Positions 33,112-64,000 of a stretch of DNA of 64,000 bases are shown in pieces (within the stretch, counting starts at the first letter, position 1; each line of letters begins with the position of its first letter). The translations under genes and the position numbers were made by a program. The stretch lies in NCBI RefSeq assembly GCF_036127095.1, contig NZ_CP108006.1, forward strand, positions 8,642,293 to 8,706,292, given 5' to 3'. The notes below the pieces were generated by a model that was given only the letters and a program-made list of their open reading frames with translations, made no database searches and was not told where the DNA came from. The DNA is from Streptomyces sp. NBC_00335 (GTDB lineage: Bacteria; Actinomycetota; Actinomycetes; Streptomycetales; Streptomycetaceae).

Positions 33112-33120
33112 TTGCGTTGG

Positions 33121-33194
33121 TAGCGGGGACAGGATTTGAACCTGCGACCTCTGGGTTATGAGCCCAGCGAGCTACCGAGCTGCTCCACCCCGCG
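33121..33194 (-). tRNA. Initiator tRNA-fMet (CAU)
   Basis: 74 nt without CCA. The acceptor arms CGCGGGG and CCCCGCT leave the first base unpaired (C1 against T72), a mark of bacterial initiators. The anticodon stem ends in GGG:CCC around CTCATAA, another initiator hallmark. The T arm is GCAGG-TTCAAAT-CCTGT. The anticodon CAT lies at + strand positions 33148-33150. CCA is not encoded. Confidence 0.93.
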
Positions 33195-52162: not shown

Positions 52163-52541
52163 GTGAAGAAGGCAATGAAGGCCGCGGTCGTCGTGGCTGC
52201 TGTTGTGGCGGGTCTTTCGGTGTCTGTTGTTCCGGCTGAAGCCTCGCAGTGCAAGGGAGGCGGCGGTGCTCTCTATATATGTGAGTACGGGGTGACCGAG
52301 CACACGGTGGTCAACGGGGAAGAGGAGGAGTTTCTGATCGGTCTCGACTCTGCGGTGTGGACTCGAATGACGTGGGGGTCCGTGGAAGTCGTTGGGTGGT
52401 GTTGCCCGGAGCGGGGTGAAGTTCCATGAGACCGGGTGGGGCGCAATTTCCGTGACGGGTATGGACGGCGCCAGTTGGAGCAGAACCCGAACCAGCGTCA
52501 TCGGGGGCTGGACTGGCTGGCTCAGGCCTCCTCGGTAACCC
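52163..52541 (+). pseudogene. Secreted tachylectin/PLL-like repeat protein, frameshifted
   Basis: The GTG at 52163 has GGGAGG upstream and opens a good signal peptide (KAAVVVAAVVAGLSVSVVPA). The mature start reads EEEFLIGLDSAVWTR, a lectin-like repeat, then the frame runs into unrelated codons. Other frames continue the family: SRWVVLPGAG, then KFHETGWGAISVTGMDGASW and GGWTGWLRPP. At least two frameshifts, so decayed, unless the short 88-residue product is used. Confidence 0.5.
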
Positions 52542-52560
52542 CTAACGGGGCGTGGGCCAG

Positions 52561-52705
52561 GATCCCGTGAAACGGGGTCACTTCCCGTACGGAGCGCAGG
52601 AGTCTCGGCCTGTGCGACGGGCCTCGTCCTGGTGGAGTGCGGCGGGCGGAGAGCTGGCGCCGAAGGCGCCCCGGGCTGAGCATAGCGAGGCCGTTTGGTC
52701 CTGAC
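52561..52705 (+). repeat. GNA-triloop hairpin array A
   Basis: Hairpins include GATCCCGT-GAA-ACGGGGTC (52561-52579) and the perfect GGCGCC-GAA-GGCGCC (52656-52670). A further unit has loop GCG (GGCCTGT/ACGGGCC). The block ends GCGAGGCCGTTTGGTCCTG, nearly the same as in array F at the window end. There is no coding potential. Confidence 0.75.
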
Positions 52706-52833
52706 CTGGTCGCCCTGGTCCGCGCCGGCGCGCCCGCTTCGAGATGGGAGTCCTCGTCGATCGCGAGGAAGTCTCAGCAGCCTGAGCTATGTCGTGATCA
52801 GAGGACTTGACAACTGCACGTTCATGGCCGGCC

Positions 52834-53778
52834 TCATGCGGATGGTCGACCGCGCCCGAGCAGTCCGCTCACCTCGCCGGCGAGGGCGACCGAGGCATCG
52901 ATCTCTACTTTGCGGATCGACACGCTCTCCACGAGGAAGCCGAACGGCATGCCGAGCCTGCGGCAGAAGGCGACCAGGTCACGGGCGGTGGCCAAGCAGT
53001 GCTCGTACGACTCGGCCAGGGTGTCCTCGGCGTGGAGCAGCGAGTTCTCAATCCAGCGTGGCACGTCGACTCCGAGCCATTTGAGGAACGTCAGCGTCTT
53101 CACCGAGCCGCATACCGAGAGCGTGAACAGGACGGGCTTTGGTGCGAGCCGCCGGTCGCGGCAGGCGTAGTAGTAGTCGGAGACCATGCTCTTCACCGCG
53201 TCGGCGTTGTAGATGACCTGCGAGATAAAGAACGTGCATCCCGCTTCCTGCTTGGCGAGCAGCCGCAGGTGCTCGTCGGGCCGCTCGGTGATGGCGACGC
53301 CGCCGAGCAGCAGGTCCGGGCGGACGTCACGGCGCAGGGCCTGAGCCTCGGACAGGCGGGTCCGCACCGTCTTGTCTTTCGAGGCCGCACCGACGAAGAC
53401 GCTGAGCACGCGGTCCGTGTCGGCCGTCTGCAGCCAAGTCCGCAGTTCCGCCTCGGGGTACTTGCCGACGCACCGGTAGATAACCGCGGGGCGGTTCCAC
53501 TCGGCGAGGTATTCCGCGTGGTAGGTGGCGGGGTCCATGGTCGGCAGGTACGGAAACGGTCGCTCCGCAGGATTGCGGTCGCTCTCGTCGTCGATGTCGT
53601 AGAGCGCCAGACCGTCTAGGTCGAGGAAGTCCAACCGTGCCAACGTGGCTGCGGTGATCTCCTGGATCCGCTCGGGAGCGGTGCTCAGACGCGGCGGCGT
53701 GATGCCGAACAGCAGGATGCCGCTCTCGGCGTCGGTCACCAGCGTCCGGAGAGCTGTGCTGTCTCTGAGATCCATCAT
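52834..53778 (-). CDS. Methylenetetrahydrofolate reductase-like protein
   Basis: 314 residues; starts at 53778 or at the adjacent ATG. The barrel pattern of MetF-type enzymes is visible: GLALYDIDDESDRNPAERPF, ILLFGITPPRLSTAPERIQE, LSVFVGAASKDK, LLLGGVAITERPDEHLRLLA, KQEAGCTFFISQVIYNADAV and PVLFTLSVCGSVKTLTFLKW. The phrase AITERPDEHLRLLAKQEAGC with FFISQVIYN corresponds to the FAD/folate-binding part of MTHFR. It would reduce methylene- to methyl-tetrahydrofolate or act on a related one-carbon compound. No metH or metE is nearby, so its context is unusual. Confidence 0.75.
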   Translation of the reverse strand: MMDLRDSTALRTLVTDAESGILLFGITPPRLSTAPERIQEITAATLARLDFLDLDGLALYDIDDESDRNPAERPFPYLPTMDPATYHAEYLAEWNRPAVIYRCVGKYPEAELRTWLQTADTDRVLSVFVGAASKDKTVRTRLSEAQALRRDVRPDLLLGGVAITERPDEHLRLLAKQEAGCTFFISQVIYNADAVKSMVSDYYYACRDRRLAPKPVLFTLSVCGSVKTLTFLKWLGVDVPRWIENSLLHAEDTLAESYEHCLATARDLVAFCRRLGMPFGFLVESVSIRKVEIDASVALAGEVSGLLGRGRPSA

Positions 53779-53955
53779 GTCGCGGAAGCTACCAGCTCAT
53801 TCACCAGGCAGTAGGCGAAGGTCACTCCGTGAGACCGGATTCGGCCGCTCTCGCCCGAGGGAACCATAACAAGGCTCCGGTGGAACGACCGCGCTGATCA
53901 GATCCACAGGATTTGACAATAACTCTCGGTCCCTCACTGTCAGGTGGTGTGGTGT

Positions 53956-54720
53956 TCAGTTTGTTGATTTGGGTGCTTGTGGGAACAGGGTGTAGCCGTT
54001 GGTGTTGAACCTGCTGAGTACGGATTCGGAGATTCCGCCTTCGGGGGACATCTGTTGTTTCCAGTCTCCTTCGTGCCAGCGTGCGGTCATCATCACTGTG
54101 GTGAAGGTGCCTCCGGGGTTGCGGTACGCGATGTCGACGATGGCGGTGTCCGGGGTGAAGGTGACGAGTTTGTACCCGGCGGGCACCATTCGGTTTGACT
54201 TCGCGGGGTAGTCGGGCTGGCCGCTGCGGTGCGCCGCCGTACCTTGCTCGAATACGTTCTTCGAGGCGTCGGGAAAGACCTGCTGCTCGACGACCTTCCG
54301 CCAGTCCGGGCCGTTGGCTGCCCGGCTGCTGATGTTCACCAGGGCGAGGACGGCGCCGCGCGGCGTACGGGCATAGCAGCGGGCGACCTGGCCCTGGGTG
54401 ACGGCCGGGCCCGAGGTCTTCGAGGTGGGCAGGTACAGGGGGCCGAAAGCGGCCCATCCCATCCCTGCTGAGGCTACGTCGGTTGCGCTCGCGGCATCCG
54501 TCTGTTGGTCGGACAGGGGCGGGCAGGAGGAAGCGGCGGGTGGTGGGGCAGTCTGGCCCTGAGGAGTTGCCGTCGCAGTCCCGGCGGGTGAACCGTCCTG
54601 GCCGGCTCCTGGACCTTGCGCGGTACCGCTACTCTTCCCGGCGTCAGCGCTCTGGCATCCGACGAGCATCATGACGGCAACGGCCGCGATGGCCCCCGCG
54701 GCCTTCTGACTGCTTCTCAC
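53956..54720 (-). CDS. Lipoprotein of a conjugation-associated type
   Basis: 254 residues from the GTG at 54720 with AAGGGGGA upstream. Signal AGAIAAVAVMMLVG and lipobox VGC, then a Gly/Thr/Pro-rich linker and an outer domain with GPAVTQGQVARCYARTPRGA, LALVNISSRAANGPDWRKVV and TVMMTARWHEGDWKQQMSPE. This layout recalls lipoprotein/VirB8-like partners in actinobacterial conjugation clusters, but no other transfer gene is near. Function uncertain. Confidence 0.6.
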   Translation of the reverse strand: MRSSQKAAGAIAAVAVMMLVGCQSADAGKSSGTAQGPGAGQDGSPAGTATATPQGQTAPPPAASSCPPLSDQQTDAASATDVASAGMGWAAFGPLYLPTSKTSGPAVTQGQVARCYARTPRGAVLALVNISSRAANGPDWRKVVEQQVFPDASKNVFEQGTAAHRSGQPDYPAKSNRMVPAGYKLVTFTPDTAIVDIAYRNPGGTFTTVMMTARWHEGDWKQQMSPEGGISESVLSRFNTNGYTLFPQAPKSTN

Positions 54721-54820
54721 TGTTCCCCCTTGGTGCTGTTGCACCGAACCGTTCACCACAACCAACCATGAACATACAAGTGTTCGATCTTGCTGGTGCC
54801 CCCTTTTCCCGCGATACGGA

Positions 54821-54891
54821 CTGCTCCCGGTAGAGCGCAGCGAACCGGGAGCAGTCCGGAGCGGAGCGCAGGACTCCCGGCCGAAGGCCGG
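54821..54891 (+). repeat. GNA-triloop hairpin array B
   Basis: An 11-bp perfect stem (54821-54831 with 54844-54854) is capped by AGA-GC-GCA-GC-GA. Next comes AGTCC/GGACT capped with GC-GGA-GC, then CCGGCC-GAA-GGCCGG at 54877-54891. Same strand polarity as the other arrays. Confidence 0.8.
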
Positions 54892-54912
54892 CTATGGGCA
54901 GAGGACCGTGTC

Positions 54913-54940
54913 CCAGACTCCTCCTTGGGTAGGAGTCTGG
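54913..54940. terminator. 10-bp hairpin next to array B
   Basis: CCAGACTCCT and AGGAGTCTGG around CCTTGGGT, followed by TCTTTGGTTG. Unlike the array hairpins its loop is not GNA, so it is a more ordinary terminator. Confidence 0.6.
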
Positions 54941-55113
54941 TCTTTGGTTGTGCCTGTTTGGATTGCAGTTGGAGGGTTGAGGCCGACGGGGGGTGGCGCG
55001 TGTTGGGTTTCTTCCTGGAGCTTGTGCGATGTGGATGCCTCGGGCGCGGGCCCGTACCGGGGTCTTGCCTGCCTGTGGTCTGCTCTCGATGCCCCAGGGA
55101 GGTGCTTGAATCG

Positions 55114-55482
55114 GTGACTAGCTTCGTTTCGCCGAAGGGGTGGGATATGGGCCGGGGAGCTGGGCAGCAGGAGATTGAGCGGGAGTTGCGTCGGAGGGCG
55201 AGGGGAGGGGCGTCCACGCTGGAGATGCTCACCTGGTTGAAGGGCGACCTGGAGGCTCGCATCAGCGATCCGGTCGACCGTGACGGTGGGATTTCCTTCT
55301 GCATGATCGTGACGTTCACATCGGTTTTTGATCTGGGGTTGACACCGGGACGGTTCATCGCGAGCTGGGATCGGTTCGGAGGTCATCTGAACGATGGGGA
55401 ACTGGTGCGGAGACTGGGTCCGCTGACCCTGGCACCGGACGAGGAATCCCAGCCCTCTGACTGTGGCGGGTACTGGGTCTGA
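55114..55482 (+). CDS. Uncharacterised 122-residue protein
   Basis: Starts proposed at the GTG at 55114 or at the ATG at 55147, the latter with GGGGTGGGA upstream. Helical N-terminus (GQQEIERELRRRARGGASTL), then WLKGDLEARISDPVDRDGGI and LTPGRFIASWDRFGGHLNDG. Soluble. No family recognised. The longer upstream frame runs through hairpin array B and is not likely to be coding. Confidence 0.55.
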   Translation: MTSFVSPKGWDMGRGAGQQEIERELRRRARGGASTLEMLTWLKGDLEARISDPVDRDGGISFCMIVTFTSVFDLGLTPGRFIASWDRFGGHLNDGELVRRLGPLTLAPDEESQPSDCGGYWV

Positions 55483-55532
55483 GAACGAACCCGGAAGAAC
55501 AGGGAGCGCAGTGGTACCCCGATGGCGCGATG

Positions 55533-55604
55533 AGGGGTGGGCCGGATTTGAACCGGCGTCATCTCTCTGTGCAGGAGGGTGCGACGATCTCTGAGCTCCC
55601 CTCC
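55533..55604 (-). tRNA. tRNA-like sequence, possibly decayed tRNA-Cys (GCA)
   Basis: 72 nt. The T arm is perfect (GCCGG-TTCAAAT-CCGGC). A 7-nt anticodon loop CTGCACA with T33 and GCA sits on a 4-of-5-bp stem. The acceptor pairs only 5 of 7 (GGAGGGG against CCACCCC) and no D stem can be formed convincingly. It could be a degenerate tRNA or an old attachment-site copy of a tRNA end. Confidence 0.3.
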
Positions 55605-55661
55605 TGCACCACGACGTCATCAACCTCGACAGCCACCCTTGTGGCTGGCTGCGGAGCAGGC

Positions 55662-55869
55662 TTGTCCTGGAGGCGGAGCCGGAAAGGTCTGGGTGGGGGA
55701 GTCGAGCGGACCCGCCCAACGTGGGCCGAAGGCCCGGACTCCGTGAAACGGGGTCACCCCAGCCCGTATAGCGGGCGTTCGGGGCGGAGCGCGCAGCGAA
55801 CCCCCGAACCCGTCCGCGGGAAGCGCAGGCCCCATGCCCGAAGGCCGGCTCCGGCTCGGCGAAGCCGGT
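55662..55869 (+). repeat. GNA-triloop hairpin array C
   Basis: In order: GTCCT-type hairpin with GGC-GGA-GCC; a degenerate GGGTG/CCCGCCC unit; GGGCC-GAA-GGCCC (55723-55735); GACTCCGT-GAA-ACGGGGTC; GCCCGT-ATA-GCGGGC; a TTCGGGG-type stem around a GCGCAGC cap; and a CCGGCT/AGCCGG unit with GGC-GAA-GCC. The first four units occur in the same order in array F with different stems. Confidence 0.8.
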
Positions 55870-55996
55870 CTCTCTTGAGTGCGCAGGCTTGATCGTTGTG
55901 CTTCTGAGGGGCTTGTAATCGCCGACTACCTGGTGGTCTTGCTGGGGAGGTTGGTCGGGGTACGAGCTGCATACGCTGGAGTAGAGGGAGAGCGTC

Positions 55997-56152
55997 ATGG
56001 CGGACGAGCAAGAGGTTGAGGCCACCCCCGAGCCGGTTCCGGTGGAGAAGCCGACGCTGGTGGCGGGGACTCAGAAGCTGGAGACGAAGCACATCACGGG
56101 GCAGGTCATCACGCACACGATCGTCAAGCCGATCCCCGGCGGCGGGGAGTAG
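55997..56152 (+). CDS. Small 51-residue acidic protein
   Basis: ATG at 55997 with a strong GAGGGAGAG site; ends at TAG 56150-56152. Reads MADEQEVEATPEPVPVEKPT, then LVAGTQKLETKHITGQVITH and a GGGE end. Hydrophilic, no membrane helix. It is the only gene in the 845-bp gap between the 122-residue gene and the membrane protein. Unknown. Confidence 0.6.
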   Translation: MADEQEVEATPEPVPVEKPTLVAGTQKLETKHITGQVITHTIVKPIPGGGE

Positions 56153-56154
56153 CC

Positions 56155-56278
56155 CGAAGGACCCGGGCGGGGGGAGCGAAGCGACCCCCACCCGAACGGT
56201 TCTGCAGGCCCGGACCCCGTGAAACGGGGGTCACCTCCAGAGCGGAGCGCGGAGGCCTCAGGCCGGCGAAGCCGGCCC
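56155..56278 (+). repeat. GNA-triloop hairpin array D
   Basis: Includes GGGG/CCCC around GA-GC-GAA-GC-GA, ACCCCGT-GAA-ACGGGG, CCTCC/GGAGG around a GCGGAGCGC cap, and the perfect GGCCGGC-GAA-GCCGGCC (56261-56277). It begins directly after the stop of the small protein. Confidence 0.8.
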
Positions 56279-56327
56279 GCCCATGGTGGAGTGCAGCGGA
56301 ACTTGGAACCAGTTCGAAGCGCGGGGC

Positions 56328-56753
56328 TTAGCTCCAGGTGAAGGGGAAGTAGGAGCCCGGGGTTGCGTTGTAGGTGGGGACGACGTAGGCGCAGTTCCCG
56401 TCATCGGGTCGTCCGGGTGCTGCTGCGGCTTGGGCCAAGTGCTCGCCGTAAGCGTCGATTGCGTCTGCGCCGATCAGAGTGAGCAGGACGGCAGCCAGGG
56501 AGGTTACCGCGGGGAGGATGGTGCGGGGCCGGAGTCGGGCGAGTGTAACGGCAGAGGTCACTGTGGCTACGAGGGCACCGAGTATCAAGGCGAGAGATGT
56601 CCACGTTACGCGGTCGATTTCTGGATGCTGCTGACAGAAGACGTAGAGCTTCCCCTCTGTCCGTTTCAGTAGAGCCACGGTGACGAGTGCGATGCCGATC
56701 CCGGCAACCACCCATGCCGTGCCTGCTGGGCGTGTTGCAGTCTTTGTCTCCAC
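56328..56753 (-). CDS. Membrane protein with three helices
   Basis: 141 residues from the GTG at 56753 with GGAG upstream. Helices: GTAWVVAGIGIALVTVALL, SLALILGALVATVTSAVTLA and ILPAVTSLAAVLLTLIGADA. An outer tail with a single Cys (DDGNCAYVVPTYNATPG) follows. No family recognised. The longer upstream frame runs through array E and is rejected. Confidence 0.6.
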   Translation of the reverse strand: METKTATRPAGTAWVVAGIGIALVTVALLKRTEGKLYVFCQQHPEIDRVTWTSLALILGALVATVTSAVTLARLRPRTILPAVTSLAAVLLTLIGADAIDAYGEHLAQAAAAPGRPDDGNCAYVVPTYNATPGSYFPFTWS

Positions 56754-56864
56754 GTGTAGGACTCCAGTGCCGATACGGGTGATGCTTGATGATCCCGCAC
56801 AGCGTTTTTCGTATTTCGAGTGGGAGGGACTGAATGCGAGGGGAGCACCCGAGAGGGGGCCTGC

Positions 56865-57094
56865 GCCGGGAGAGCGCAGCGGAACCGGTGCCAGTCCGAA
56901 GGACGGGTCCTGGCTCGGGCCCTGTGAAACAGGGTCACCTCCCGAGCGAAGCGAGGGAGTCCCTGCCCGCGTAGCGGGCCTCTCCGGTGGAGCGCAGCGG
57001 AACCGGAGCAGTCCGGAGCGCAGCGCAGGACTGCAGCTCGAAGCGAAGCGGAGAGCTACCGGCCGAAGGCCGGCCCTGGGCTGCGAAGCAGCCC
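56865..57094 (+). repeat. GNA-triloop hairpin array E, densest stretch
   Basis: Back-to-back perfect stems at 56939-56959 (CTCCC/GGGAG around GA-GC-GAA-GC-GA), 56965-56979 (GCCCGC-GTA-GCGGGC), 56982-57008 (CTCCGGT/ACCGGAG, cap GC-GCA-GC), 57008-57034 (GCAGTCC/GGACTGC, cap GC-GCA-GC), 57035-57057 (AGCTC/GAGCT, cap GC-GAA-GC), 57059-57073 (CCGGCC-GAA-GGCCGG) and 57078-57094 (GGGCTGC-GAA-GCAGCCC). The remaining gap to 57349 shows no gene. Confidence 0.88.
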
Positions 57095-57348
57095 CCACCG
57101 AGCTGTGAATGTGCTGCCGGGTGGCAGCGCGTGGGCGTCAGCGCGGCGTACCTGGTGAGGGAGGGCCTTGGCCCGGGTGGCTGCTGTCATGGGGTGACCA
57201 GCCGGCTGTCATGGAGCGAATATGTGCTGGTGGACCGCTGCCACCAGCCTGCACATTCACACGATGAGATCTTGTTCCACTGCCGGCCCCCCCCACGTGG
57301 CAACTGCAGTATGCGAGCCCTGTTCGGCCGGATCGCTACGCTGCGGGG

Positions 57349-57723
57349 ATGGATCATCCCGCCAGGCGGTACTACAACCCGGAGATCACGGCGACCGAGG
57401 AGCGTGACCTGCTGCGGCGGAACTATCTGCTGATTCAAACGCTTCAGGCCTCGCTGGGGCTCATCGGGCCGGATGTTCTCGCCATCGCCGTCGAGCCTCG
57501 GCCGGAAGAGGTCGTCCTCCACTTCGCTGTCGCCGAGCTCACTGCTGAGGTGGAGGAAGATGTCGAAGACATCGTCTTCGAGCTCACGGTGTTCCTCGCC
57601 GGTGGTCCCGAGCAGCGCTCGAAGATCACCACGGAACTGCACGTCGGCGACCCGCATGCGACCTGGCACAGCCGCCGCTACGCGATGCTCTACCGCACCA
57701 AGATCAAGACCGAGGCGGAGTAA
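57349..57723 (+). CDS. Uncharacterised 124-residue protein
   Basis: ATG at 57349; no strong ribosome site. Acidic protein: helical N-terminus (TATEERDLLRRNYLLIQTLQ), then a beta-alpha unit (VLAIAVEPRPEEVVLHFAVA; AEVEEDVEDIVFELTVFLAG) and TTELHVGDPHATWHSRRYAM. The C-terminal WHSRRYAMLYRTK is distinctive. No family is recognised. It converges with the GyrB-like gene. Confidence 0.6.
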   Translation: MDHPARRYYNPEITATEERDLLRRNYLLIQTLQASLGLIGPDVLAIAVEPRPEEVVLHFAVAELTAEVEEDVEDIVFELTVFLAGGPEQRSKITTELHVGDPHATWHSRRYAMLYRTKIKTEAE

Positions 57724-57819
57724 CCGAACTTCACAGGCAATCGGCACCCCGCCGTCTCGGCGTTCACCCCCCGCCGGGTTTACCCCCGGGCTGGAGGTCC
57801 TTTGTCGCACCTTCGCACG

Positions 57820-58995
57820 TCAGATGGACGCGTTCAGGATGTGGCGGGTGATGGCGGCGGCTTCGTCCGGGTGGTGGTCTAGCCAGTCGGTGAGGTGTTC
57901 GTGGACGGCTTCCTGGACGTAGGTATCTGCCTCGGGATTGCTGAGCTTCGTCCGGGTGGCGCCTTCGAAGACGGGACGGGCGAGCTTCACGGAGACGACC
58001 GCGGTCAGGCCCTCGTGGATGGCTTCGGCCGTGATGTCCTTGTCGTTCGCGCGCAGATGCCGTTGACGGCGTGCGTATTCGTTGATGAGGTCCGTGAGTG
58101 CGGTGCGGAAGCCCTGTTCGTGTGCGCCGCCCTCATGGGTGCGTGTGCTGTTCGCGAAGGAGCGGAACTCTCCCGGCGACCAGGTGTTCCACTGCATGGC
58201 GACCTGTACGGAGATCGTCTTGTCCTGGTTCTCCGACTCGAAGGCGATGGCGGGGGAGTGGACGAGGCTCGGGGGGTAGGGGTTGAGGTGGGCGACGTAG
58301 GCCCGTAGGCCGTCCGTGTGGTGGTAGCGGGCCGGTCGCTCCGGCCGTTCGTCGGTGAGTGAGATGGCCAGGCCGTCGTTGAGGAAGGCCAGTTCCTGGA
58401 GGCGCTGCGACAGCGTGGCGAACGAGTAGTGGGTGGTCTCGAAGATGCCTGTGTCGGGCATGAACGTAATCGCGGTCCCGTGATTGCCCGTCTCCTCGTG
58501 CCTCGTCAGGGGAGTGAGCGGGGTGCCCTTCTCGTACGCCTGGGTCCAACGGTGGCCGTCTCGGTGGACTTCGACCGTGAGACGGCTCGACAGTGCGTTG
58601 ACCACGCACAGGCCCAGGCCGCTGATGCCGCCGGAGACCCCGTAGCCGCTGTGGGGCTTGGTGTCGAAGGACAGCTCCGTCAGCTCGCGTTCGAGGGCCG
58701 ACATGCCGGTGGACTCCTCCACCTGGACGGGCAGGCCCCGCCCGTTGTCCGCGACGCGAATGGCGCCGTCCGGGGTGATCGTGACGTCGATGGTGTCGGC
58801 GTGGCCGGCAAGGTGCTCGTCGACGGCGTACGTGACGACCTCGAACACCATCTGGTGCAGACCGCGCTCGCTGGTCGAGCCGATGTACATGCCGGGGCGC
58901 CTGCGTATCCCCTCGCGGGCCTCGAGTACCTGGATGTGACTGGCGTTGTACTCATTCACGTTCGCGGGCTGACTGGGGTTGCCGGACTCGGTCAT
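57820..58995 (-). CDS. GyrB-like ATPase and transducer domains without TOPRIM
   Basis: 391 residues from the ATG at 58995 with GGGAGGG. Residues 18-220 are a GHKL ATPase of the GyrB type (REGIRRRPGMYIGSTSERGL; VADNGRGLPVQVEEST; GISGLGLCVVNALSSRLTVE). Residues 220-391 are the transducer (GLTAVVSVKLARPVFEGATR; TKLSNPEADTYVQEAVHEHL). It stops where gyrase B (650-800 residues) goes on to TOPRIM. The usual EVVDNxxDE reads EVVTYAVDE: the catalytic Glu is kept but the Mg-binding Asn is Tyr. It may be a decoy, resistance or regulatory protein rather than a topoisomerase. Confidence 0.85.
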   Translation of the reverse strand: MTESGNPSQPANVNEYNASHIQVLEAREGIRRRPGMYIGSTSERGLHQMVFEVVTYAVDEHLAGHADTIDVTITPDGAIRVADNGRGLPVQVEESTGMSALERELTELSFDTKPHSGYGVSGGISGLGLCVVNALSSRLTVEVHRDGHRWTQAYEKGTPLTPLTRHEETGNHGTAITFMPDTGIFETTHYSFATLSQRLQELAFLNDGLAISLTDERPERPARYHHTDGLRAYVAHLNPYPPSLVHSPAIAFESENQDKTISVQVAMQWNTWSPGEFRSFANSTRTHEGGAHEQGFRTALTDLINEYARRQRHLRANDKDITAEAIHEGLTAVVSVKLARPVFEGATRTKLSNPEADTYVQEAVHEHLTDWLDHHPDEAAAITRHILNASI

Positions 58996-59168
58996 GAAAC
59001 ACCCTCCCTGGCCGTCCTGAGCATGTGTGTGAGCGGATGCAGCCGAAGCGGCCGAAGCGGCTTCCACGCGGGTCTCCGGCGCATGCCCATCCTAGGGTTC
59101 TGAGGGAAAAACCGCAGGTCAGGCCCTCTAGGATGAGGTCCCAGGTGGTCGCATCCACGGCTTGTCTG

Positions 59169-59235
59169 CAGCCGTCGTTCTAGGGGACCGCTGCTGGGAG
59201 CGGAGCAGCGCGAAGGCCCCGCCGAAGGCGCGCGG
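59169..59235 (+). repeat. Small GNA-hairpin cluster
   Basis: GCTGCT/AGCAGC around GGGAGCGG and CGCC-GAA-GGCG occur here, between the GyrB-like gene and the helicase relic. It is a minimal form of the arrays elsewhere in this region. Confidence 0.6.
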
Positions 59236-59297
59236 AGGGCGTTCTCGGCTGGGCCTGAGGTGCCTTTTCCTACGGATTTCCGGCAGGGTGCGACACG

Positions 59298-59555
59298 CTA
59301 CTGCGCCCAGTGGGTGCGGAGCTCGGCGAGGACAGCAGGTCGGTCGGTGGTGAGCTTGTCGCGCTTGGAGATCCATACGCCGAGCTTCACGGTCACCAGC
59401 TCGGCCTCGCTGGCGACTGTGATCTCCTCCCCGTGGGCCCTGGGAACCGGCCGGTGGGTGTCTTCCTGCTCGACTCGCCGCGTGAGGGCTGTCAGGCCGC
59501 GCTGTGCCTGGTCGCCGACCTGGCTGGGCCTCTTCGCCGTGCGCGGCGCTGCGGG
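59298..59555 (-). pseudogene. Fragment of a helicase C-terminal domain
   Basis: Reads RPSQVGDQAQRGLTALTRRV, RPVPRAHGEEI, ELVTVKLGVWISKRDKLTTD and AELRTHWAQ then TAG. The intact helicase ends the same way (QRGLVALTQWV, VRLGVWISNTKSRRDKLTAD, AALAELGVNWSK). No start codon: it follows in frame after the TAG of the 100-residue gene. It is a leftover of a second helicase copy. Confidence 0.75.
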
Positions 59556-59858
59556 CTATGGAGCTGGGTGCTTTGGTCTGCTGGGTGCGGTGTCGGGTGT
59601 GCGGGCGGGGCTGCATTCGACGATCTCGCGTGCGGCCCGCAGCTTGCTGGGGTGATCGCCGATGAGTCTGGTGGTGATCAGGATGGCGCGGATGATGGGG
59701 ACGCCTTGGTCCTTCAGGTGCTGCTGGACGGTGTCCATGCCGGTCCCTGCGGTGAGAAGGTCTCGGCATTGATCGATGTGGTCGGCGATCTGCTGCGCCT
59801 GATTGGGGGACAGTCCGCTGACGGATGCAAGGAGTTCTTCTGCGGTGGGCGTGGGCAT
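59556..59858 (-). CDS. Uncharacterised 100-residue protein in front of the helicase fragment
   Basis: ATG at 59858. Helical: AEELLASVSGLSPNQAQQIA, DHIDQCRDLLTAGTGMDTVQ, PIIRAILITTRLIGDHPSKL. It ends at TAG 59558-59556, and the helicase fragment goes on in the same frame for 85 codons. So it may once have been longer, or the stop may be read through. The helicase gene is 48 bp upstream on the same strand. Confidence 0.55.
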   Translation of the reverse strand: MPTPTAEELLASVSGLSPNQAQQIADHIDQCRDLLTAGTGMDTVQQHLKDQGVPIIRAILITTRLIGDHPSKLRAAREIVECSPARTPDTAPSRPKHPAP

Positions 59859-59905
59859 GTTGGGATCTTCTCAAAGGGGTCGCTGCCAGCAATACAGTGT
59901 CGCGG

Positions 59906-62602
59906 CTACTTGGACCAGTTCACGCCGAGCTCGGCGAGGGCGGCGTGCTGGTCTGCGGTGAGCTTGTCCCGCCGGCTCTTCGTGTTGGAGATCCATACGC
60001 CAAGTCGAACGGTCACCGCCTCCGTCTCTCCGTCGACCGCGACGACCTCGGTGTGGCCGCGGGGCACGGGTCGGCCGGCGCCTTCCCGTTCCACCCACTG
60101 CGTCAAGGCCACCAAGCCCCGCTGGAACGCCTGCTGCGCCTTACTCGGCCCCTTCGCTCCGCGTCCGGCCGCAGGGGCAGGGAAGGGCACCTGGTCGGGG
60201 TGTACGTCGAGCTTGCTCAGCCTCTCCTGTTGCTCGGCCGATAGCTGTGCCCATGTGTGGGGTTGTTTCTGGCGTTCCAGCCAGCGGCCGAGGTCGTCGC
60301 CGTCGTAGAGGACGCCGGGTGCGATGGCCGGCAAGATGCCGCTGGTTTCGGTTTGGGCGAGGTCCGCGAGGACGCGGTAGTGCCGCTGCCAGTCCAGCGG
60401 CCACGGGCAGTCCCAGTCCCGGTCGATGGCGGTCAGCTGCGCGGCGCGGGTGGTCGCGGTGTCCTGGTTCTTGCCGAGGCCGTTTTTGGGGCCTTTGCGG
60501 CGGAGGTTGGCCATGAACTGTCCGATGGCGAGTTGGTCGTCGTCGCCCTCGCCTTCGCCCCAGACGGCGTCTTGCCTCGGGGCGAGGTGTCCGTTGGCGC
60601 GCCGGTAGGAGCGGAGTGCGGCGAGTTTGGTCTCCCATGCTTCCTGGCCGGGTTCCCACACCATCCCTGCTTGGGGGGAGTCGAGGAGGGTTTTTCGGTG
60701 CTCGTCCAGCTCTCCCGTCCGCAGGGCTTTGCGCTGCTGGTGGACCCACCGTCCGAGGGGAAACTCCTTCGTGACCCCCACTTCGACCTCGACGTCGTAG
60801 GGGACGGCGTGGACGCCGGTGATCTCGTTCTCCGCCCGCCACCGCAGGAGCGCTTGGTAGCCCTCCAGCCAGACGAGGGATTCGGGCCGGTAGACCCGGG
60901 TGCGCAGGAACGCCGCGATGGTGGCGGCGTCGCGCGGGGTGGAGAAGTGGAGAAGTGCGGACTCGATGGCTGTATCGGCGCTGCTCTCCTGGCCGCCGTC
61001 GTCGGGCTCACCTCCGATGCGGCCGGCTCCGACGATCCGGCCGTCTTGGTCGCGCTGGAGGTGGACGTGGTGCTGTCCGTGGGTGAGGGCGCGGGAGGCG
61101 AGTTGCTCGACGAGTCGTTCCGAGTGAGAACGCAGGCCCTGGAGGACGGCGACGAGGGGCTTGTAGCTGGCGGAGGCGACCATGTCCTTGGGGTTCTCGC
61201 CCGGCTGGAGGAACACCGGCACGATGATCCGGGCGACCTTCGTGCTGCCGTCCCGGTGGGGGCGCAGCGCCCGTCCGATGTTCTGCACGATCTCGACTTG
61301 GGAGCCGCGGGTGTCCGCGAAGCAGATCGCATCGACCCCCCGCTCGCCGGTGATGTCGACGCCTTCCCCGAGAACGCGTACGGAGGCGAGGAACGCGCGG
61401 TGGACCCGCCGGTTGTCGGCGTCGATGCCGTTGGCGAACTGGCGCAGGGCTTCGCGGCGCTCGGTGACGAGGTGGTCCCCGCACAGCCATGCCGACCACA
61501 GGCGGTCCGGGGGTACGTGGCGGCCGGCCTCCAGCTCGTAGAACTCCGCGGCGATCGGCGACGCGGGCAGGGTGTCCGCCTGGGTGAGGGCGGTGTCGGA
61601 GGTCTCGCTGGCATACAGCTCGGCGGCGGTCTGGGGCAGCTTGTCGGCGAACGCGGCGGCTTCCTCGACTCGCTGGTGGAAGGTCATGACGGTGCGGAGG
61701 TTGTGCGCGGCGGCGTGCTCCAGGAGTGCGGTCTGCAGCAGTGCTAGGCGCCGGCCGCGTAGCGATTCCTCCGATAGGACGAGCGGCTGCCGTTCGGGTT
61801 CGTGGATCTCCAGCACGTCGATCTCGAAACCGGCAAGGATCTCCCGCTCGATGGCCTCCGACAGGCCGAGCTCGGCGATCCACTCGCCGTAGGGCCCGTC
61901 CGGATCGCTGGTCATGGACGCGATCTCCACTTCCTGGCCGTCGGCGCCGCGCTGGGGGTGGGCCGCGGCGAGGATGCGCGGGGTCGCGGTGAGGTAGAGC
62001 CGGTAGGCGGCGGGGATGCGGGTGTTGTCGTGGATCGCGGCCCACGGCCGACCAAGATCACCGGCGGTGCCGTGGGCTTCGTCGACGATCGCGAGGTCGA
62101 ACGGTGCCATCTGCTGCCCGTACAGCCGCTCTCCGCCCGCCAGGGCGGCCTCCAGCGGGCCGCGAACCTTGCGCTGTTCCCCGGGTCCTTCGGGGTCCTC
62201 GCGGTCGACGAGGGAGGCGTACGTGGCGAGAACGACGACTGGCCCGGAGCCGGCCCACAGGGACAGCTGGATCGGGTTGGTCGTGGTGCGCACGCCCAGC
62301 GAGTCGAGCACCGGGTCGTTCTCCAGGGAGCAGACGGCGACCATAGGGGCGCGGTGGCCGACGAGCCGCCACGCCTGGGCGGTCTGGGCGAGGAGGTCCA
62401 GGGTCGGGACGGTGACGAGGATCCGTCCGCCGGAGAAGCACTCCAGGGCGCTCGCCGCGGCCGTGATGGTCTTCCCGGAGCCGGTCGCGGACACGATCGT
62501 GGCCCGCGCCCCCTGAGTAGGCACGGAAAACCTTGCAGGGAATCCAACCCACTTACGGAAATGCGCCTTCTGGTCGACCTGGTGTTCCCGGAGCTGAATC
62601 AC
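59906..62602 (-). CDS. Large SF2 DEAD/DEAH-type helicase with helicase-associated repeats
   Basis: 898 residues from a GTG at 62602. Motif I: ATIVSATGSGKTITAAASAL. Motif II: FDLAIVDEAHGTAG (DEAH). Motif III: YLTATPR. Motif VI: QVEIVQNIGRALRPHR (QxxGRxxR). Residues about 590-890 hold two or three helicase-associated domains with Trp-rich repeats (VWEPGQEAWETKLAALRSYR; DDLGRWLERQKQPHTWAQLS; VRLGVWISNTKSRRDK). Such proteins are abundant in Streptomyces arms, plasmids and phages and probably remodel DNA during replication, transfer or defence. A fragment of a second copy lies just downstream. Confidence 0.93.
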   Translation of the reverse strand: MIQLREHQVDQKAHFRKWVGFPARFSVPTQGARATIVSATGSGKTITAAASALECFSGGRILVTVPTLDLLAQTAQAWRLVGHRAPMVAVCSLENDPVLDSLGVRTTTNPIQLSLWAGSGPVVVLATYASLVDREDPEGPGEQRKVRGPLEAALAGGERLYGQQMAPFDLAIVDEAHGTAGDLGRPWAAIHDNTRIPAAYRLYLTATPRILAAAHPQRGADGQEVEIASMTSDPDGPYGEWIAELGLSEAIEREILAGFEIDVLEIHEPERQPLVLSEESLRGRRLALLQTALLEHAAAHNLRTVMTFHQRVEEAAAFADKLPQTAAELYASETSDTALTQADTLPASPIAAEFYELEAGRHVPPDRLWSAWLCGDHLVTERREALRQFANGIDADNRRVHRAFLASVRVLGEGVDITGERGVDAICFADTRGSQVEIVQNIGRALRPHRDGSTKVARIIVPVFLQPGENPKDMVASASYKPLVAVLQGLRSHSERLVEQLASRALTHGQHHVHLQRDQDGRIVGAGRIGGEPDDGGQESSADTAIESALLHFSTPRDAATIAAFLRTRVYRPESLVWLEGYQALLRWRAENEITGVHAVPYDVEVEVGVTKEFPLGRWVHQQRKALRTGELDEHRKTLLDSPQAGMVWEPGQEAWETKLAALRSYRRANGHLAPRQDAVWGEGEGDDDQLAIGQFMANLRRKGPKNGLGKNQDTATTRAAQLTAIDRDWDCPWPLDWQRHYRVLADLAQTETSGILPAIAPGVLYDGDDLGRWLERQKQPHTWAQLSAEQQERLSKLDVHPDQVPFPAPAAGRGAKGPSKAQQAFQRGLVALTQWVEREGAGRPVPRGHTEVVAVDGETEAVTVRLGVWISNTKSRRDKLTADQHAALAELGVNWSK

Positions 62603-62671
62603 AAGATAGCTGCCGATCTCTCACACTTTTACGAATGAAACAAGCATCGGAATCCCTTGGAGAGACCGGAG

Positions 62672-63241
62672 CTACCAACCCTGTTCGGACGGGCCGACGA
62701 TTTCGTGTCCGATCTGCTTGGCGAGGTGCTGCGCACGTTCTTCAGTGAAAGGGCGGACGTGTACGTACACGGTGTGGTTGGTAGCCGGGTTGCCGTCGGC
62801 GTCGCTGTTGAAGCAGGCCTGGACGCCTGTGCGGGCATGCTCGGGTCCGAGATCGAGCTCGGGTACTGCCGGCCAGCTGAGTGCCATCCAGTCGATCTGC
62901 CCCCAAGAAGCCTTCCGTAGCACGCCCGCAGCCCGCTCAAGCAGGTCACTGTCCACAGGTTCCTCGACCGAGAGCTTCATCGGCAGCAAGCCGGCCAGCG
63001 CAGTAGCATCGCGGGGAAGGTCGACACCGCGGAGTAGCGAGTCACCTCCCGAGTACCAGCCCTGAGGGAACACCTCGAGGGCCTCCAGGACCTCCTCCAC
63101 CCGGCACAGTTCGGCATCCAGGCCGACGGTTGCGTTCTCCCACAGCTCCCCGCACCCGACCAGAAGCTGAGCCACGGCGATTACCGCGTCTACGTTGCCA
63201 CTCTCACTCCGATAGATTGGATAGGCCCTTGCCTCACCCAT
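62672..63241 (-). CDS. Uncharacterised 189-residue protein
   Basis: ATG at 63241. Soluble, acidic; AVIAVAQLLVGCGELWENAT, RVEEVLEALEVFPQGWYSGG, QIDWMALSWPAVPELDLGPE and HTVYVHVRPFTEERAQHLAK. No recognised motif. Size, charge and position next to a helicase and an ankyrin gene recall immunity proteins, but this cannot be shown. Confidence 0.6.
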   Translation of the reverse strand: MGEARAYPIYRSESGNVDAVIAVAQLLVGCGELWENATVGLDAELCRVEEVLEALEVFPQGWYSGGDSLLRGVDLPRDATALAGLLPMKLSVEEPVDSDLLERAAGVLRKASWGQIDWMALSWPAVPELDLGPEHARTGVQACFNSDADGNPATNHTVYVHVRPFTEERAQHLAKQIGHEIVGPSEQGW

Positions 63242-63345
63242 ATTCCCCGCCCTCTTCCTGCCCAGTGATATAGTCTATTTCCGCCAATGGTACATGCTGC
63301 ATCTACCAGATGCAGTCGTCATGCCAGAACCCGATAGGAGTCCCG

Positions 63346-63735
63346 ATGACCGAGTCCGCCGAGAATCCGTGGACTCCTGCTCATCAGGCGGTGGAGTCGG
63401 GTGACCATGCCGAGTTGACCCGTCTCCTCGACGCGGGCGTGGACCCCGAAGAGGTCTGTTGTGGGATGACGCTCCTGCTTCACGCGATTGATGTGGAGGG
63501 GGATGGGGCGCTCCAGTCCGGCGGTCCGCTCGATTCGGCGCTCACCGCGATCTTGCTGGCCTACGGAGCTGACCCCACCGCAACACCCGAAGGCGAGACG
63601 CCACGCCAGTTGGCGAGTTCTGACAACCATGACATGGCAGTCAGGCTCCTGGACCGGCACACAGCAGCCCTCGCGGTTCCTGTTGCCGGCCCGCGGAGCG
63701 GGCTGTGGTCCTGGAGGCGGAGCCGGAAGGACTGA
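63346..63735 (+). CDS. Ankyrin-repeat protein whose 3' end lies in a hairpin array
   Basis: 129 residues from the ATG at 63346 with AGGAG. Three ankyrin units: NPWTPAHQAVESGDHAELTR, MTLLLHAIDVEGDGA..TAI and ETPRQLASSDNHDMAVRLLD. The last 16 codons (GPRSGLWSWRRSRKD) are encoded by two array-F hairpins, GCCCGC-GGA-GCGGGC and the GTCCT/AGGAC unit. So the array has overrun or been captured by the end of the gene. A short ankyrin protein is usually an interaction module or immunity protein. Confidence 0.75.
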   Translation: MTESAENPWTPAHQAVESGDHAELTRLLDAGVDPEEVCCGMTLLLHAIDVEGDGALQSGGPLDSALTAILLAYGADPTATPEGETPRQLASSDNHDMAVRLLDRHTAALAVPVAGPRSGLWSWRRSRKD

Positions 63736-64000
63736 GGGTGGGAGCGAAGCGGACACCCAACGGGCCGTAGGCCCGGCCCCAGTGAAACGGGGTCATCTCC
63801 CGCGCGAAGCGCGGGAGTCCGTGGGGCTGCGAAGCAGCTCCACTCTGGGTGGAGCGCAGCGGAACCCAGAGCCAGTCCGGAGCGAAGCGCAGGACTCCCG
63901 GCCCGAAGGGCCGGCTATAGCTCGGAGCGACGCGCAGAGCCGGGCCCGACGGGCCCGGCCGAGCGCAGCGAGGCCGTTCGGTCCTGAGCGCGCAGCGCTC
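63689..64000 (+). repeat. GNA-triloop hairpin array F, running to the window end
   Basis: At least eleven units, among them CGGGCC-GTA-GGCCCG, a 9-bp CTCCCGCGC stem closed by GAA, GGGGCTGC-GAA-GCAGCTCC, TCTGGGT/ACCCAGA and AGTCC/GGACT with GC-GNA-GC caps, CCGGCCC-GAA-GGGCCGG, CGGGCCC-GAC-GGGCCCG, GGCC/GGCC around GA-GC-GCA-GC-GA, and the final GAGCGC-GCA-GCGCTC. The first units repeat the order of array C with other stems. The array is not finished at the window edge. Confidence 0.88.

Follow-up and report, generated by a model that had tools for sequence, protein, structure and literature searches.

The right end of a Streptomyces chromosome appears to hold former telomeres in layers

The stretch of DNA analysed here (the window; 64,000 nucleotides of Streptomyces sp. 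NBC_00335) ends on its right at the end of the 8,706,292-bp contig, so that its last array of hairpins (positions 63687 to 64000, + strand) is the telomere itself. About 14 hairpins (H1-H14) were counted by eye on its 3′-ending strand, and a script that scored GNA triloops closed by at least 5 perfect stem pairs found 12 GNA hairpins on the + strand and 0 on the other. Matches to this right telomere were obtained at the left chromosome tip (about 320 bp at 88%), at the right end of contig C2 of the same genome and at the ends of Streptomyces plasmid records; phage records gave none. Judged by the contig end, the hairpin counts and the similarity to other tips, the last 314 bp is the telomere of a Streptomyces replicon end, linear as assembled. 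The tips read GTACCTGAGCGC... and ...GCGCTC, and the archetypal 13-nt palindrome I, as quoted in the available part of PMC7205883, is absent from them; the assembly may miss the last bases. Beside the telomere lies a subterminal ankyrin-repeat gene (63310 to 63735, + strand; Pfam Ank), and domain matches identify a telomere-proximal helicase with ResIII/DEAD and helicase-associated domains (59906 to 62602, - strand), homologues of which occur in many of the replicon ends fetched.

The telomere was also matched by record CP003276.1, which we take, from its strain and size, to be pSHJG1 of jinggangensis 5008, at 76.6% over about 105 nt and in the proximal third only. PMC8743542 sorts Streptomyces telomeres into six classes and calls the right end of that plasmid Sg2247-type, a class judged by similarity over the terminal 150 bp; among the records matched, this end is the nearest for which the paper gives a class. 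No Tap or Tpg was found in genomes with Sg2247 ends (PMC8743542), whereas this genome has both, with one gene each over the cut-off, on C2. According to the available part of PMC8743545, pSCL4 is needed for chromosome linearity in S. clavuligerus, and C2 can be likened to it only in carrying the genome's sole over-cut-off Tap and Tpg matches. The left end of C2 was considered as a named class and rejected, as one record only was matched, over just 67 bp.

The earlier note had described at least six arrays of GNA-capped mini-hairpins and a minor cluster in the right 11.5 kb. Each array was compared with 100 dinucleotide-preserving shuffles. The arrays at 63687-64000 and 56859-57094 held 12 and 9 GNA hairpins (shuffle means 0.30 and 0.17, maximum 2 in both; folding z -4.4 and -3.4). 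Fewer were found at 56151-56321 (3; mean 0.14, maximum 2; z -1.4), 55651-55895 (4; mean 0.16, maximum 2; z -1.5), 54820-54900 (2; mean 0.08, maximum 1; z -2.4) and 52538-52704 (2; mean 0.09, maximum 1; z -1.2). Hence, the arrays at 63.7 and 56.9 kb are strong and the other four weak as hairpin arrays, although by alignment those four are nonetheless clearly homologous to the telomere. The 59.2-kb cluster was rejected (1 hairpin, shuffle maximum 2, z +0.6). The earlier observation was partly confirmed: in the right 11.5 kb, GNA caps close 17 of 31 triloop hairpins on the + strand and 0 of 31 on the - strand. In the left 52.5 kb the count is 7 of 114 for either strand, and, as had been stated, there is no cluster of at least 3 GNA hairpins. 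Neither the shuffles nor a sample of 840 kb taken elsewhere in the chromosome (with a 10 kb overlap between two of its stretches) gave an equal density. The sample contained a single array with 4 or more GNA hairpins (L037), which lies in the chromosome core and is a GNA-capped repeat of a different sort. The observation that stems vary under constant caps also held, since 92.0% of paired cells were kept across 17 terminal copies (shuffle maximum 89.1%). A search of Rfam with 52-64 kb at E 1 gave a single weak match, under the gathering score and outside the arrays. A tRNA-like stretch near 55.55 kb was rejected, the only tRNA reported by ARAGORN in the window being tRNA-Met at 33118-33194.

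The arrays at 52.5, 54.8, 55.7, 56.2 and 56.9 kb align to the telomere at the contig end, all on the + strand, which bears out the tie to Streptomyces telomere palindromes drawn in the earlier note. From these alignments, the inner arrays (A to E, A being the most proximal) are homologues of the telomere that differ in subtype and truncation, and they are probably relic telomeres. What had been read as mini-hairpins dispersed among ordinary genes is instead one telomere with five truncated copies, some of them with a subterminal gene. The share of bases in GNA hairpins is 0.78 in the telomere and, from the outside in, 0.82, 0.40, 0.27, 0.47 and 0.20 in the relics, so that decay is not monotonic with depth, relic B being out of order (n=5).

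Relic E (56859 to 57094, + strand; telomere homology at 56859-57043) is the richest in hairpins, with 9 GNA hairpins and 82% of its bases in hairpins. Relic D (56151 to 56321, + strand), delimited by telomere alignment and hairpin counts, covers about H3-H8 and is partly decayed; its neighbouring ORF (51 aa) was rejected as a known subterminal gene, with no plasmid match at E 0.01. Flanking synteny was looked for around relics D and E, and none was found. Relic C (55651 to 55892, + strand) spans the hairpins from H1 up to the terminal palindrome, which is decayed; its subtype, also present at the ends of other plasmids, lacks H6 and carries a TCTC box. Its subterminal partner, gene C (55114 to 55482, + strand), was detected by tblastn (E 1e-5) in 2 of 72,556 plasmid records; in both it lies about 300-430 bp, and no more than 433 bp, from the record end. 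Furthermore, window positions 55129-55867, which comprise gene C and relic C, are colinear with the extreme end of Streptomyces plasmid NZ_CP108702.1: 55129-55456 matched L143 19605-19932 at 83% and 55651-55867 matched L143 20005-20218 at 79%, which corresponds to positions 48-661 of the record. Judged by this colinearity, relic C was once a real end.

Only about H8-H10 is left of relic B (54827 to 54899, + strand; telomere alignment). Just distal to it there is a 5′ fragment of gene X (54907 to 55025, + strand). In six plasmid records the same segment lies about 0.8-0.9 kb from the record end, and in genome G277 it is just distal to a relic. Relic A (52538 to 52704, + strand) is decayed, and parts of H4-H8 and H12-H13 can be recognised in it. 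The small ORF that adjoins it (52163 to 52429, + strand) has, by eye, a signal-peptide-like start. Together with the beginning of relic A, this ORF has a match in a S. xanthophaeus plasmid; the match is subterminal, about 2 kb from the plasmid end, and the ORF is frameshifted there. In the genome samples, with few candidates scored per genome, the gene X fragment was found in 1 other of 392 genomes and gene C in 0 others of 392, and both the relic A ORF and the DNA around relics D and E in 0 others of 295. Relics A, B, D and E also lack proximal parts, and therefore some of the loss is internal.

At other replicon ends, by similarity, blocks of a small gene plus a telomere occur at tips and buried alike. 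Of the relatives of the ankyrin gene that come with a telomere, those in C2, L127 and G277 are buried, and those in other records are terminal. In C2 the buried relative of the chromosome's block (87% over 446 bp) is cut after H5, and distal to it there are 2.5 kb with a second relic, and then the terminal telomere. In G277 the same block (88% over 420 bp) is cut in the H4-H5 region, and beyond the cut follow gene X, a second relic, a protease-inhibitor gene and the telomere at the contig end. At all 8 distinct places found for the protease-inhibitor gene, the gene lies within -10 to +22 nt of telomere-like DNA; 5 of these places are contig or record ends, and 3 are buried. Most of the loci searched had been fetched for their telomere similarity in the first place. 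A survey of 42 ends gave 16 internal copies on 10 ends, all 16 facing the near end and none reversed, and 32 ends without any relic; three head-to-head telomere joints in other genomes are at odds with this one-orientation pattern. On the most generous of many alignments, the proximal edge is reached to within 4 nt by 13 of 21 relics and the distal edge to within 10 nt by only 3; distal losses of 48 nt or more affect 16.

These results make it very probable that, in the right 11.5 kb, at least five former telomeres are stacked behind the present one, as a result of repeated end capture. The most likely course, which we infer, is that eroded ends repeatedly acquired subterminal DNA that brought another telomere with it. 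The trigger would be erosion of the telomere's 3′-ending strand or failed end patching; the damaged end would then be joined to, or copied into, the subterminal DNA of another linear replicon (a chromosome or a linear plasmid), and the incoming DNA would bring its own small gene and an intact telomere. The new tip would take over and the old telomere would be left inside as a truncated, decaying relic, so that repeated rounds would build up strata, the oldest roughly innermost. The GNA hairpins in the 3′ overhang of the live telomere would take part in end patching by a putative Tap/Tpg-type system, which would place a terminal protein on the 5′ end, and the relics would be mainly fossils that also offer homology for further end exchange. 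No donor of near-identical sequence was detected and the capture event went unobserved, so that the data do not discriminate between end joining, break-induced copying and recombination between relics.

The former telomeres might also have been kept by selection as spares: after loss of the tip, the 3′ strand of the next relic would fold, bind a Tap/Tpg-type complex and become the new end. This reading, an addition to the capture model and compatible with it, would suit relic E, which matches the telomere in hairpin share, the orientation of all 16 surveyed internal copies and the Tap and Tpg genes on C2. It is nevertheless improbable, given the distal losses in 16 of 21 relics, the hairpin-poorer relics A-D, the 32 of 42 ends with no relic, and the lower share of pairs kept in relics (80.3%, against the 92.0% of terminal copies, a comparison that favours the latter because the pairs were voted from them). 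As the relic value barely exceeds the shuffles (mean 78.6, maximum 80.2), no claim of selection after burial is made. If one telomere had been duplicated in tandem, through slippage or unequal crossing-over at the end, closely spaced copies in one orientation would result, but the DNA between the copies differs, the copies are of different subtypes, relic C is closer to another replicon's end than to the local telomere, and a self-comparison shows no near-identical copies with shared flanks, which leaves this origin very improbable. Intergenic hairpin elements of a REP/BIME-like or terminator-like kind, dispersed by transposition or transcription needs, would likewise lie mostly in intergenic gaps, as these arrays do, and L037 indicates that GNA-capped repeats exist in the core; they are hardly credible here, as the hairpin order is identical to that of the telomere, the orientation is single rather than both genome-wide, the arrays are absent from the remaining window and the 840 kb sampled, and there is synteny with replicon ends. 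An assembly artefact, with several replicon ends stitched into one, is just as hard to credit, for although both contigs carry telomeres of this family, similar joints are present in the G277, NBC_01298, NBC_01244 and S. xanthophaeus assemblies, and the relics have diverged from all three ends of this family now in the genome.

Repeated end capture can be set beside what is known of Streptomyces ends. GNA triloops are ordinary in Streptomyces telomeres, which, like the one in the window, have packed GNA-triloop palindromes on the 3′-ending strand at replicon ends, and 'pseudo-telomeres' have already been named (PMC8743542 and the available part of PMC7205883). The earlier note had taken the dispersed arrangement to be seemingly undescribed; internal pseudo-telomeres are already mentioned in PMC8743542. 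That paper cites Huang 2003 (SLP2) and Huang 2007 (SCP1), and these pseudo-telomeres, known here through that citation, resemble relics A-E in being telomere-like sequence away from a true replicon end; the relics differ in lying five in series at one chromosome end, in the same orientation, some with a subterminal gene common to other replicon ends. No description of a five-deep stack of gene plus telomere blocks was found in the literature searched. In telomere switching or arm replacement, a chromosome swaps ends with a linear plasmid, or one arm with another (PMC7205883 and PMC5869714, in the parts available); those models, as set out there, replace the end, whereas here the old telomere is retained, with DNA beyond it.

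In a wider and improbable extension, linear Streptomyces replicons would grow outward by taking up terminal cassettes of a small gene and a telomere, the arms would be an ordered stratigraphy of dead telomeres from which past end exchange could be read, and the freshest relics, being foldable still, would act as fall-back telomeres upon loss of the tip. A caution for other genomes is that a telomere-like array is not proof of a true end. The blocks also reveal genes that ride beside telomeres (the ankyrin and protease-inhibitor genes, gene C and gene X). End turnover in Streptomyces is known and, in the available parts of PMC7205883 and PMC5869714, is described as end replacement; the layered end studied here seems to record the way in which linear bacterial chromosomes gain their tips. 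As the old telomeres are still in place, the sequence could be read for the order of the end-capture events; the decay of the relics might give them dates, and donors, for example linear plasmids, could be traced. The gain and loss of tips in linear bacterial chromosomes would thus become directly testable.

The earlier note had placed arrays of GNA-capped hairpins (triloops GAA, GCA, GTA or GGA) in the gaps of the right 11.5 kb. A count of triloop hairpins (stems of 5 pairs or more) bore this concentration out: the loop was GNA in 17 of the 31 hairpins of the right 11.5 kb, all on the + strand. In the left 52.5 kb, each strand had 7 GNA loops among 114 such hairpins. Shuffled sequences and DNA folding strongly supported the arrays at 63.7 and 56.9 kb and, more weakly, those at 56.2, 55.7, 54.8 and 52.5 kb; neither analysis supported the 59.2-kb cluster that the note had also listed. 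Elsewhere, 840 kb of sampled DNA (two stretches share 10 kb, and the left telomere stretch was excluded) contained a single array with four or more GNA hairpins, which lies at locus L037. When three hairpins sufficed, a scan of 800 kb picked out the left telomere, L037 and a further case, at locus L043. The L037 array (L037:17474-17635) is a repeat in the chromosome core: hairpins of the GGGGCTCCGCCCC type, whose loop reads GGA on the opposite strand, and then a CCTCAAACGCCGG motif. It is a second, non-telomeric kind of GNA-capped hairpin. GNA loops, together with sheared G:A pairs, are standard for Streptomyces telomeres in PMC4513846, PMC7205883 and PMC8743542.

The chromosome (C1) has 8,706,292 bases and stops at the last base of the window (C1:8642293-8706292), so that the right edge is the contig end. 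The reverse complement of the first ~320 bases of C1 matched the last 314 bases of the window at 88%; apart from telomere and inner-array matches, the window shared with the left 200 kb only a 99-bp segment, which includes its tRNA-Met gene, and a 43-bp segment. The telomere sequence was also present (86%) at the right end of C2, the only other contig of the genome (296,690 bases), and at 130 places in 81 of 72,556 plasmid records, 80 of the 81 being Streptomyces by name; many of the best 50 of these 130 places lay at record ends. Taken together, the contig end and these matches identify the array at 63.69 kb (63687-64000) as the chromosome's telomere.

By BLAST, all five inner arrays aligned to this telomere on the + strand: relic A (52538-52704), relic B (54829-54895), relic C (55651-55865), relic D (56151-56321) and relic E (56859-57043). 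When 17 terminal telomeres were aligned by MAFFT with the five relics of the window and eight others, the order of hairpins was common to all, while the hairpins missing differed. Relic C extends from H1, the most proximal hairpin, as far as the terminal palindrome; it has no H6, and its TCTC box is that of a second subtype. In relic A the terminal palindrome is missing, and the last element is the box that belongs to the first subtype.

Relics A, B and C have neighbours that recur at or near the ends of other replicons. Gene C (55114-55482) and relic C (together 55129-55867) are colinear with positions 48-661 of plasmid record NZ_CP108702.1 of Streptomyces sp. NBC_01006, with identities of 83% for the gene and 79% for the telomere, and gene C lies at the extreme end of one further plasmid record as well. 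A pattern scan of the genome collection detected a sole relative, in Kitasatospora aureofaciens (NZ_JAHTKP010000056.1), at most 0.9 kb from a contig end packed with GNA arrays that belong to a different type of telomere; gene C thus seems to stay subterminal across telomere types. The relic A ORF (52163-52429) and the start of relic A matched S. xanthophaeus plasmid NZ_CP116357.1 (86% over 491 bp) ~2 kb from its end, with three more telomere-like segments beyond. Immediately distal to relic B, segment 54907-55025 corresponds to the 5′ portion of gene X. Six plasmid records have this segment 0.78-0.9 kb from their ends, several of them near-equal in length and thus probably of one lineage, and it also occurs in genome G277. 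In genome samples, where few candidates were scored per genome, gene C (392 genomes), the relic A ORF (295) and the DNA around relics D and E (295) were found in the own genome only, and the gene X fragment in one genome besides (392).

Conversely, a close relative of the chromosome's terminal block, i.e., the ankyrin gene (63310-63735) plus telomere, is buried in other places. On C2 the block (87% over 446 bp) breaks off after H5; the next 2.5 kb contain a second relic and the terminal telomere. On contig C12 of G277 it (88% over 420 bp) is cut in the H4-H5 region, and beyond it lie gene X, another short relic (84% over 49 nt), a protease-inhibitor gene and, where the contig ends, a telomere. 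The inhibitor gene was located -10 to +22 nt from telomere-like DNA in 8 of 8 distinct places (five at contig or record ends, three buried, among these a copy at 6.875 Mb of a G012 contig), although copies far from telomeres would largely be missed, since the searched loci were mostly fetched for telomere similarity. That 9.03-Mb contig carries relics deep inside, directed right at 6.875 (L120) and 8.43 Mb (L122) and left at 2.57 Mb (L121); no telomere was found at either of its ends, so its layout may be wrong.

We then surveyed 42 ends. The plasmid set comprised the 24 ends whose telomere spans 80% or more of the query, each taken over 20 kb (three over 12 kb). Three ends came from the own genome and 15 from other genomes, out of 36 contig ends fetched from the latter. 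Twenty of the remaining 21 contig ends had no terminal array or homologue; the last of those dropped (L089, on a 1.0-Mb contig of the five-contig assembly G004) did show an array. Sixteen internal homologues (E 1e-6, more than 350 nt from the end) were detected on 10 of the 42 ends, not all independent, since record lengths suggest that some are of the same strain (G054/L140, G038/L052). All 16 were oriented as the near end and none was reversed; the window's end had five and every other end 0 to 2. One three-hairpin GNA array near the right end of G054 was on the opposite strand. At odds with a single orientation, however, are head-to-head telomere joints (+ then -) in G077:C380 (L057), G148:C11 (L062) and G082:C1 (L102, ~45.4 kb), which look as if two replicon ends had been fused, or joined in assembly. 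Among 21 relics hand-picked from these results, with edges taken from the most generous of many alignments, 13 reached the proximal edge within 4 nt and three the distal edge within 10 nt, and 16 lacked at least 48 nt distally.

Terminal copies kept 92.0% of paired cells, above all 1000 shuffles (maximum 89.1), and internal copies 80.3% (shuffle mean 78.6, maximum 80.2), a comparison that leans towards terminal copies because the pairs were voted from them. The share of bases in GNA hairpins was 0.78 in the telomere and, from outside to inside, 0.82, 0.40, 0.27, 0.47 and 0.20 in the relics. Such values would be expected of copies that decay once buried, although a series of five relics, one out of order, does not prove it.

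With one former end established by synteny, a single orientation, distal truncation, and gene-plus-telomere cassettes both terminal and buried, the right-end arrays are very probably a telomere with former telomeres buried behind it by end capture; this reading is tempered slightly by the fact that only relic C has firm flanking synteny with an extreme end. The 3′-ending strand of a telomere would erode, and would then capture, by end joining or copying, a subterminal stretch from a different linear replicon. Pseudo-telomeres are named and set aside in PMC8743542, which cites Huang 2003 and 2007; in the literature searched, whose coverage left out most subscription papers, no account was found of buried telomeres stacked along with their own genes.

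The telomere-proximal helicase (59906-62602, - strand) adjoins a 415-aa protein (57820-59067) that shares with DNA gyrase B just its ATPase and second domains, and a 78% relative of this protein adjoins the helicase at an NBC_01006 plasmid end (L138). Of two segments that are 67% alike, 59905-60124 is the 3′ end of the helicase gene and 59297-59504, close by, is probably a fragment of such a gene. Plasmid loci L130 and L132 have genes with TnsA-like, TniB and Mu-type transposase annotations, at distances from the plasmid end of ~0.9 kb and 4.6 kb, respectively. PMC3572947 takes isolated tpg genes and pseudogenes of terminal regions as signs of frequent exchange.

In the own genome, the telomere-associated protein Tap and the terminal protein Tpg each had one match over the cut-off (1012 and 296.5 bits); the two are neighbours close to the left end of C2 (C2:2852-5593). 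On the chromosome only Tap was matched, twice and below the cut-off both times (70 and 43 bits). By eye, C2 bears at its left end a different sequence with TTC/TTT loops, so that it looks like a hybrid of two telomere types. Chromosome linearity is reported to depend on plasmid pSCL4 (PMC8743545), and a like dependence in S. rochei is quoted in PMC5869714. By analogy with these cases, the linearity of the chromosome studied here may depend on C2.
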